A DNA stretch of 37,530 nt from Flavobacteriaceae bacterium. GTDB lineage: Bacteria > Bacteroidota > Bacteroidia > Flavobacteriales > Flavobacteriaceae. A program made the translations under genes and the position numbers. The DNA lies in contig JAMONB010000224.1 in assembly GCA_027066745.1 (NCBI GenBank), positions 1 through 37,530 on the forward strand, in the 5' to 3' direction. The notes under the pieces were generated by a model. The model searched no databases. It saw only the letters and a program-made list of their open reading frames with translations, and was not told the DNA's origin. Shown here piece by piece: positions 12,061-35,193 of the stretch (positions within the stretch are counted from its first letter, which is position 1; each line of letters opens with the position of its first letter).

Positions 12061-12068
12061 TATATTTG
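12061..12068 (+). promoter_or_regulatory. Promoter (-7 TATATTTG) for the RNA and antirepressor
   Basis: TATATTTG lies three bases before the 5' arm of a long RNA helix, so transcription should start at or next to that arm. A clear -33 TTG at the usual distance is not seen; the internal transposase site occupies that region, which would fit activator or repressor control. Confidence 0.6.
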
Positions 12069-12070
12069 TC

Positions 12071-12180
12071 GTGACCAACCGTTTTTGGAGAAATCTGAAA
12101 ACAATTAATTACGATAAGAGTTCACCCAAGGTGAGCAGTTCCGAAAGGGCTGTACTTCCGTCCAAAAAACGGTTGGTCAC
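12071..12180 (+). ncRNA. Structured leader RNA of the antirepressor gene (c4-like candidate)
   Basis: The 5' arm (12071-12089, GTGACCAACCGTTTTTGGA) pairs with the 3' arm (12161-12180) over 19 bp with one bulged A. Inside are two hairpins: GTTCACC-CAA-GGTGAGC (12120-12136) and AGTTC/GGGCT with loop CGAAA (12137-12151). G-U pairs in these stems fit the plus strand only. The 3' arm segment TTGGTCA (12173-12179) can alternatively pair with TGACCAA (12217-12223), which covers the antirepressor start codon. Just after the helix CACC-TAAA-GGTG forms another hairpin. Phages P1 and P7 control an antirepressor by such an RNA (c4). No homology to c4 is claimed. Confidence 0.65.
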
Positions 12181-12215
12181 ACCTAAAGGTGGACTCGCAT
12201 ACAAAATTTTCAAAT

Positions 12216-12890
12216 ATGACCAATAAGAAAATGAGTACACAAATGGCGTTTAAATTTAACGCTACAAGTCAAGAGGTTCGCAGTCTAATAATAGACAGTG
12301 AGCCTTTTTTTGTTGCAAAAGATATTTGTGACATACTTGGTTTGTCAAATTCAAGAATTGCAACAGCTAATCTTGATTCTGATGAGAAAGCTGACGTAAG
12401 TTTAACTTACAGCAGCTCAAATGGAACTACACAAAATCGTAAAACTAAAGTAGTTAGTGAAAGTGGTTTATATGCCTTAATTCTTAAATCAAGAAAGCCA
12501 CAAGCTCGTGCTTTTAGAAAATGGGTAACCAGTGAAGTTTTACCAACTATTCGTAAAAAAGGGTATTATGGTATTATAAATAAACCTAGTAATTTTATAG
12601 ATATACGAGATGTGCCATTTACCAAACAGCAATTTAACGGTTTTAACATACGTGTAATAGAGTATAAAAACCAAAATTGGTATAGCTTGGTAGATATACA
12701 CCGTTGTATAGGTTCTCAAACCTGTATTACACAAGCTGCTAAAAAACTAAATACTAAAAAACCGTTGGCTAAAAAAATATGGTTGTTTGGTGCAACACAA
12801 CCAGCTTGGTACACTACAAAGTTAGGTTTTAAGCTTATAATTAGTGGTAGTAGAGTATTTGCAATTAGTAATCAATTAAAATTAAATTAA
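12216..12890 (+). CDS. Bro-N domain antirepressor-like protein
   Basis: The product has 224 residues, starting at ATG 12216; a GTG at 12189 lies in the RNA leader. The Bro-N domain (about residues 8-110) contains FFVAKDICDILGLSN, VVSESGLYALILKSRKPQAR and FRKWVTSEVLPTIRKKGYYG, the classic antirepressor pattern. The C-terminal part (WYSLVDIHRCIGSQ..., KKLNTKKPLAKKIWLFGATQ) could be a second DNA- or repressor-binding domain. Such proteins inactivate phage repressors. It is preceded by its own promoter and structured leader, separate from the early operon. Confidence 0.85.
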   Translation: MTNKKMSTQMAFKFNATSQEVRSLIIDSEPFFVAKDICDILGLSNSRIATANLDSDEKADVSLTYSSSNGTTQNRKTKVVSESGLYALILKSRKPQARAFRKWVTSEVLPTIRKKGYYGIINKPSNFIDIRDVPFTKQQFNGFNIRVIEYKNQNWYSLVDIHRCIGSQTCITQAAKKLNTKKPLAKKIWLFGATQPAWYTTKLGFKLIISGSRVFAISNQLKLN

Positions 12891-12893
12891 GCT

Positions 12894-13115
12894 ATGAGTA
12901 CTATTAAACAAACCGCAAAGCAAGTAGAAGTATTTTTTAACAATACTATTACTAAAGAAGAATTTTCACAGTATATGCGCCAATTTTTACATGTAGTTGT
13001 TTTAAACCAATTACAAGCAGAAGAAAACACTAATAATGCCACTATAGAAAGCGGTTACTATTGGTTAACCCAGTTTATAGAACAAATAGACCCAATGCTT
13101 CAAAAAGAAATTTAA
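12894..13115 (+). CDS. Unknown 73-residue protein
   Basis: It starts 4 bases after the antirepressor stop, so it is co-transcribed with it. The product is helical and mildly acidic (MSTIKQTAKQVEVFFNNTIT...), with an aromatic SGYYWLTQFIEQ segment near residues 53-64. No signal peptide or known motif was seen. It may be an accessory of the antirepressor, but this rests only on position. A perfect inverted repeat GTTAAAACA/TGTTTTAAC (about 13119-13149) follows it and could be a weak terminator or processing hairpin. Confidence 0.6.
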   Translation: MSTIKQTAKQVEVFFNNTITKEEFSQYMRQFLHVVVLNQLQAEENTNNATIESGYYWLTQFIEQIDPMLQKEI

Positions 13116-13409: not shown

Positions 13410-13505
13410 AAGCAACCATAGTAATAAATGGCTCTAATATGGTATATACTAAAAATTAACTATATTTACACTTCTCAAGGTAATTAAATAAACCGAAGCC
13501 AACGT

Positions 13506-13532
13506 AAAAACCCTCTTTATTGAGGGTTTTTT
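13506..13532 (+). terminator. Intrinsic terminator after the lipoprotein gene
   Basis: AAAAACCCTC (13506-13515), loop TTTATT, then GAGGGTTTTTT (13522-13532): a 10-bp perfect stem followed by a T run. It closes the antirepressor/lipoprotein transcript. Confidence 0.9.
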
Positions 13533-35080: not shown

Positions 35081-35193
35081 CCTCCAGCGTTAAAAAAAGC
35101 TTCTGACACCTTTTTAAACAACCGAGCCAACGGCTACTGGAGGACAAAGTCTTCTAGTTGTCGTTGGCTTTTATTGTTTTAGGGTGTCAGAAG
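35081..35193. ncRNA. Structured RNA region before the methylase, strand uncertain
   Basis: Outer stem CTTCTGACACC (35100-35110) pairs perfectly with GGTGTCAGAAG (35183-35193). Inside, AGCCAACG (35125-35132) pairs with CGTTGGCT (35162-35169) and continues for 13 more base pairs with one mismatch and three G-U pairs around an AAA loop. It is followed by TTTATTGTTTT on the plus strand. The segment CCTCCAGCGTT (35081-35091) can instead pair with AACG plus CTGGAGG (35129-35143), breaking that hairpin. On the minus strand, TATATTTG (35203-35196) precedes the outer stem, which ends in a T7 run. The G-U pairs favour the plus strand: a terminator/antiterminator for the methylase. The minus-strand signals fit a 102-base sRNA. 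Confidence 0.55.

Follow-up and report, generated by a model that had tools for sequence, protein, structure and literature searches.

Phages P1 and P7 provide the classic antisense lysogeny switch, the c4 RNA. According to PMC5320573, RNase P cleaves c4 at the 5' end of its P1 stem and the mature form is ~77 nt long; b' contacts the ribosome-binding site and a' confers specificity, a 4-nt change between P1 and P7 limits cross-reaction, and C4-like RNAs are abundant in Acinetobacter. PMC12197685 describes c4 as repressing ant around the ribosome-binding site and P1 and P7 as heteroimmune, and the P1 RNA is reported as processed and trans-acting (PMC5320573, PMC12197685). The P1 record holds, downstream of promoter P1c4, a putative a1 (48255-48261) and b1 (48269-48276), then c4 (48343-48419), a2 (48423-48429), b2 (48452-48459), icd (48470-48691) and ant1 (48688-49731). 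The sar RNA of phage P22 is also an antisense RNA repressing antirepressor translation; the available text of PMC12197685 does not, however, present it as folding like c4, with a1 and a2 sharing a transcript. Rfam also holds c4-2 (RF02944, clan CL00128), whose typical loci, in the genomes searched here, consist of a box, a1b1, the core and a2b2 just upstream of the ATG of a lone small gene of ~77 to 109 codons, which they control.

We analysed a stretch of 37,530 nucleotides from a Flavobacteriaceae bacterium (hereafter the window), which is identical to an IMG/VR contig and in which a structured leader precedes a phage antirepressor gene (Table 1). This leader is very probably a divergent c4-type antisense RNA, a lysogeny/attack switch of an established type in a variant that targets the start codon. 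A literature search of partial coverage found no account of these phage leaders.

Table 1. Features of the antirepressor leader and operon in the window (labels a', b', a1, b1 and a2 by analogy with phage P1), and closely spaced c4-2 copies in three genomes
Feature	Position	Strand	Basis
Promoter box TATATTTG	12061-12068	+	Box read in window; TTTG-type box before a1 in homologous leaders
a1(b1), putative decoy/target site; complements a' and the core's P4 loop	12071-12089	+	16+3 pairs with 12161-12180
Predicted c4-type RNA core; stem P1 = 12118-12126 with 12188-12196	12118-12196	+	Fold; model R2; Rfam c4-2 below cut-off
Stem P2 (12129-12133 with 12180-12184), enclosing P3, P4 and a'	12129-12184	+	Fold; matching stem of homologues covaries
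Hairpin P3, GAAA loop	12135-12153	+	Fold; corresponds to GGAAAC hairpin of c4-2
Hairpin P4; loop = b' by analogy with P1, pairs with inner part of a1	12158-12172	+	Fold
a', junction strand TTGGTCA, putative antisense element	12173-12179	+	Complement of 12217-12223 and 12072-12078
a2, putative target TGACCAA, from T of start codon into codons 2-3	12217-12223	+	Complement of a'
Antirepressor gene, Bro-N domain, 224 aa	12216-12890	+	PF02498; PHROG
73-aa small protein from the family under chromosomal c4-2 control	12894-13115	+	HMM E 4.8e-13
Paired c4-2 copies	G446:C11:350538 and 350898
Paired c4-2 copies	G364:C11:576468 and 576645
Paired c4-2 copies	G318:C4:20366 and 20487

The likeness to P1/P7 c4 (Rfam RF01695, immI), which the earlier note had proposed, extends to both the order of the elements and the position of a' within the fold. 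Promoter, a1b1, core, a2(b2) and antirepressor operon follow one another on one strand, and the controlled operon leads to the antirepressor. Both cores are closed and consist of a tetraloop hairpin and a second hairpin; b' occupies a hairpin loop, and a' sits in the junction that precedes the closing strand (the P1 fold being read by eye from its letters). The differences concern the target and the operon. P1 has a two-part target upstream of icd, with b2 at the ribosome-binding site and ending 11 nt before icd, whereas the putative target in the window is a2 alone, with the T of the start codon as its first base, no b2 partner having been found there. Further, icd comes first in P1, but the antirepressor gene comes first and the small gene second in the window, and P1 Icd gave no match to the HMM of the small protein.

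The antirepressor is well above the cut-off for PF02498 (95.8 bits against 25.6, E 2.4e-27), and 12231-12890 matches the PHROG anti-repressor Ant at E 6.7e-44. An HMM of 23 small proteins linked to c4-2 picked out the 73-aa product among 140 ORFs of the window, the next best having an E-value of 0.15; its predicted structure of three helices (mean pLDDT 67.9) was too weak for a fold search. The earlier note had called the element a Mu-like phage, and 'Mu-like prophage' is a fair label, since it encodes a large terminase, an S24-type repressor, a phage transposase (phrog_310, E 3.2e-41) and an AAA ATPase whose C-terminal part matches the MuB type slightly under the cut-off. A short hairpin flanked by A- and T-runs lies at 13505-13532, was matched by the covariance model R2 (see below) on both strands, and is perhaps a bidirectional terminator downstream of the operon.

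The coordinates and letters cited in the earlier note are correct. The box, which we take to be of the Bacteroidetes TAnnTTTG promoter type, is followed on the plus strand by GTGACCAACCGTTTTTGGA (12071-12089), and the 19-bp helix claimed for this place is present: 12071-12086 pairs with 12165-12180 in 16 contiguous pairs and, past a bulged A, 12087-12089 adds three more with 12161-12163. Folding of 12071-12230 gave -42.2 kcal/mol on the plus strand (z -3.51; as good in 0/200 shuffles) and -41.7 kcal/mol on the minus strand (z -2.18; 5/200). The preference for the plus strand, which the earlier note had ascribed to G-U pairs, is thus weak, because the minus strand folds nearly as well. This near symmetry also suits the view that the inverted repeat 12071-12089/12161-12180 is a DNA element, such as an operator or recombination site, and that its match to the start codon is due to chance, a view which we consider highly improbable on the evidence from homologues given below. 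The core region without the 5' arm (12118-12198) folds at -31.4 kcal/mol (z -3.78), a value as good being found in 1/200 shuffles. The CACC/GGTG elements, which had been read as hairpins that swap partners, are real in the letters and are also able to close as local hairpins, but are best read as the strands of the nested stems P1 and P2 of a c4 core.

The closing arm is, as had been claimed, exactly complementary to the sequence over the start codon, and the 5' arm holds the same TGACCAA (12072-12078). A triple match of at least 7 nt arose by chance in 109 of 20,000 shuffles; a 7-mer or longer common to a1 and the start region, that is, the match given a1, arose in 475 of 20,000, which is again in favour of a DNA element. 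Moreover, the a' region was matched equally well by 5 of 141 control starts, among which the window's own locus was not left out. Taken alone, the 7-nt match in the window is modest; it is significant because homologues retain it. The other Bro-N loci tested do not show it. With Bro-N as query nothing was confirmed over the genome contigs, and over the viral contigs the window and eight others were found, none of these eight having a c4 match in Rfam. Among the Bro-N loci besides the window (13 in the host family and 8 viral, L056 and L065 being without a testable start), neither the 12 testable host-family loci nor the 7 testable viral ones complement a' over 7 nt or more at the T of ATG.

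The homologous leaders were reached through the second gene of the operon. The small-protein alignment as query detected one further viral contig (L087), a first bridge, where leader, antirepressor-like gene and small protein stand in the same order as in the window. The antirepressor of L087 has no detectable homology with the Bro-N protein of the window (hhalign probability 1%), and its own Bro-N match of 22.4 bits is under the cut-off of 25.6. Used as query it led to six further loci (L090-L095), and an alignment of antirepressors of this type to 77 viral and 33 genome loci, 29 of the latter bearing Bacteroidota titles. The window, L087 and L090-L094 all have a target that starts at the T of ATG (7/7 loci) and is 7 to 11 nt long, which backs 12216 as the start codon; 12231, also considered as the antirepressor start, was dropped on this homologue evidence. 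No start-codon match was found in L095. When partners were permuted among these seven nearest loci, the summed a2 match was reached by 2 of 5040 arrangements and the summed a1 match by 1 of 5040.

The systematic set comprised 118 loci. Enough upstream sequence (190 nt) was available in 115, and removal of leaders at least 93% alike left 95, made up of the window and homologues of the second antirepressor family. In 42/95 leaders a complement of 7 nt or longer has the T of ATG as its exact start, with a' 41-59 nt upstream, against 8/854 control starts in the same loci, a comparison which somewhat favours the observed set, as antirepressors were scored at the best in-frame ATG and controls at the first ATG only; the other 53 leaders are without it. 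The signal was present in 13 of the 33 genome loci, and at least five named Bacteroidota genera are represented (Flavobacterium, Pedobacter, Winogradskyella, Maribacter and Epilithonimonas). Among the 42 leaders 29 distinct 7-mers occur. When each was represented by a single locus, the match summed to 272 against a best of 143 in 200,000 permutations, and only 1 of 812 swapped pairs reached 7 nt. These 29 loci were picked for an a2 match of at least 7 nt, so that pairing at positions 1-7 is given by construction, and the independent evidence lies in the swaps and in positions 8, 9 and 10, which are paired in 29, 23 and 19 of the 29 (two at position 8 being G-U). Pairing of a1 with the same strand summed to -676.3 kcal/mol in these representatives, whereas the best of 100,000 permutations reached -394.8. 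Immediately 5' of a1, 28 of them have a TTTG-type box.

Homologues carry a' in the same junction position, and in 42/42 leaders a predicted stem of five or more pairs encloses a', a count made without a control set. Covariation, whose absence the earlier note had named beforehand as refuting, is thus present for the pairing of a' with the start codon, for that with the 5' arm and for the enclosing stems. Both complementarities are kept with changed letters and in fixed register to the ATG, and the core stems covary, which speaks against a DNA element with a chance match and for a c4-type RNA. As a separate observation made by eye, a1 often lies in the loop of a short 5' hairpin of CCCCTG...CAGGGG type right after the box (L094, L116, L144, L170, L177 and others); the window leader is without it.

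The relation of the core to other leaders was addressed with covariance models. MAFFT alignments (A1, A2) were rejected, since divergent cores were misaligned, and a model of 22 clean c4-2 rows (R1) was used for this reason. R1 proved too narrow: the window core scored 13.1 bits (E 0.44) and came second in the window, below a partial match at 35126. R1 was superseded by R2, which was derived from 18 leaders of the other antirepressor family; neither the window nor the c4-2 loci of the host-family and order scans entered this model. Its two outer stems, which match P1 and P2 of the window, covary: 13 of 15 pairs are changed on both sides with 90.2% of cells paired, and the covariation score was reached by 0/500 shuffles, a measure of pair types by 43/500. 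R2 detected 12116-12198 of the window at 37.8 bits (E 1.7e-8), the next match being 14.6 bits, and this was the sole match reported in its own 3.44-Mb assembly, 150 of 443 candidates having been scored. Two c4-2 loci were also detected, L029 at 46.9 bits and L015 at 34.6 bits. Over 24 sources, R2 found five leaders or cores (L029, L015, L094, L179 and L144) and one unrelated place in L090, and missed P1 c4 as well as the majority of the remaining leaders; the core sequences therefore diverge strongly. Judged by this independent model, the window core is homologous to the leaders of other phages and shares its descent with the c4-2 cores of L015 and L029. An independent origin, as suggested in the earlier note, looks unlikely, because one model built from other Bacteroidota phage leaders finds both the window and c4-2 loci.

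Among 199 genomes of the family R2 matched two, the window's own and one other (G030). In the latter (L209, 1501-1691) the core precedes a lone gene of 86 aa whose a2, 8 nt long, lies at the T of ATG; this gene resembles, by eye, that of L014.

The Rfam c4-2 model aligns along its whole length with 12120-12196, scoring 23.0 bits (E 0.0095 in a search of 181 nt against all families), and the window is not filed as RF02944 under the Rfam rule because this lies below the gathering score of 41; cmscan retains only the best match of a clan, here c4-2 below its cut-off, so that no score for RF01695 is shown. Stem topology and the GGUG...GAAA...CACCUAA elements are alike, a1 and a2 take the same places and the small-protein family is held in common, but in the window the gene is an antirepressor and a2 lies on the ATG itself. 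Of 20 leader loci of the antirepressor set, one scored above the c4-2 cut-off and five more below it. Genome scans for c4-2 found 10 of 199 genomes in the host family at E 0.1 (5 over the cut-off), 15 of 395 in the order (14 over), 10 of 345 in the phylum at E 0.02 (9 over) and 1 of 17 in the host genus, at E 0.64 only.

Partner specificity is found in this family too. The test covered 36 c4-2 loci and the window; 7 of 43 (L003, L008-L011, L022 and L024) had been dropped, having no ORF in place or being presumed chance matches. Own a1 partners summed to -636.5 kcal/mol over the 37 loci, against a permutation mean of -378.5 and a best of -458.2 in 100,000; for own a2 partners the values were -548.1, -356.8 and -425.5. 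The window ranks first of 37 for both, its a1 pairing at -30.8 kcal/mol. Own partners are first often and not always, a2 of L007 being last of 37. The c4-2 core likewise covaries, with changes on both sides in 20 of 25 pairs and 97.4% of cells paired in 22 sequences.

Several features of the c4-2 loci may be recorded in their own right. One genus (g127; L015-L044 and further matches) carries stand-alone cassettes, up to six per genome, each with box, a1b1, c4-2, a2b2 and one 77-aa gene and without an adjoining antirepressor; the one cassette protein searched had no Pfam or PHROG match. Such cassettes might represent phage immunity modules that became domesticated, or a small effector under RNA control. 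Copies are paired ~120 to 360 bases apart in three genomes (Table 1). An ORF that we take to be ribosome-hibernation-factor-like lies beside c4-2 in L024, L025, L032 and L035. A match of 36 bits, below the cut-off, in another family of the phylum (L078, genome G807) has an AGTCA motif upstream and again at the next ATG, with a short downstream frame. Three viral contigs with the typical c4-2 motif looked like unrelated sequence and were set aside.

These observations fit the following scheme. The promoter at 12061 would give one transcript running from the a1 decoy and the c4-type core through a2, placed over the start codon, to the antirepressor and then the small gene. In the folded core a' would be exposed in the junction and could pair with the first codons of the antirepressor mRNA, from the U of AUG onward, which would stop translation and keep the prophage silent. 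If a1 captures a' in the same transcript, the core could not form, a2 would be free and the antirepressor would be made; a folded core, cut out or freed by another copy occupying a1, would block the start codon. In the cell the arms would compete and translation would be blocked; by the precedent of P1, the core would be processed and released as a small RNA and act mainly in trans as a translational repressor.

Folding of 12071-12260 as a single molecule bears on how a' is used. The fold with the a1 helix (-49.9 kcal/mol) beats that with a1 blocked (-33.9 kcal/mol); a' is fully paired when a1 is free and mostly opens when a1 is blocked. Since all three elements lie on one transcript, the leader might act in cis only, a' masking the start codon of its own transcript unless captured by the 5' arm, with no free antisense RNA. 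The energies above agree with such a reading, as does the window's want of a T-run after the core that could terminate a short RNA (by simple count a T-run follows P1 in 6 of the 42 leaders, the window not being among them). Yet the core is closed like P1 c4, which is reported as processed and trans-acting (PMC5320573, PMC12197685), and with the core folded a cis duplex of a' and a2 would have to span the closed P1/P2 stem. We therefore hold action in cis alone to be improbable, though less so than the DNA element, and prefer the c4-type antisense RNA. Against this preferred reading stand the low Rfam c4-2 and R1 scores, the short a2 with no b2, the 53 leaders without the signal, the negative Bro-N loci, and the failure of R2 to find P1 c4 and most of the leaders tried.

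A c4-type element is thus placed before the antirepressor genes of Bacteroidota phages and prophages, with its target fixed to the start codon, and few of these leaders are recognised by Rfam. The c4-2 RNAs, here largely multi-copy bacterial cassettes, become linked to phage antirepressor operons through both the RNA and the shared small protein. The lock on the start codon, together with the many compensatory changes, makes an immunity sequence code directly testable. As a tentative proposal, which we think possible rather than probable, temperate phages of Bacteroidota may be split into many RNA-defined immunity groups by a code of 7-13 nt in the first antirepressor codons, so that the c4-type RNA of a resident prophage would silence incoming phages of the same code and not others. 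The a1 decoy may make the switch self-reinforcing, as core RNA bound to a1 of a new transcript would free that transcript to fold more core RNA, and the 29 codes in 42 leaders, with almost no cross-match, may be traces of diversifying heteroimmunity, as between P1 and P7.
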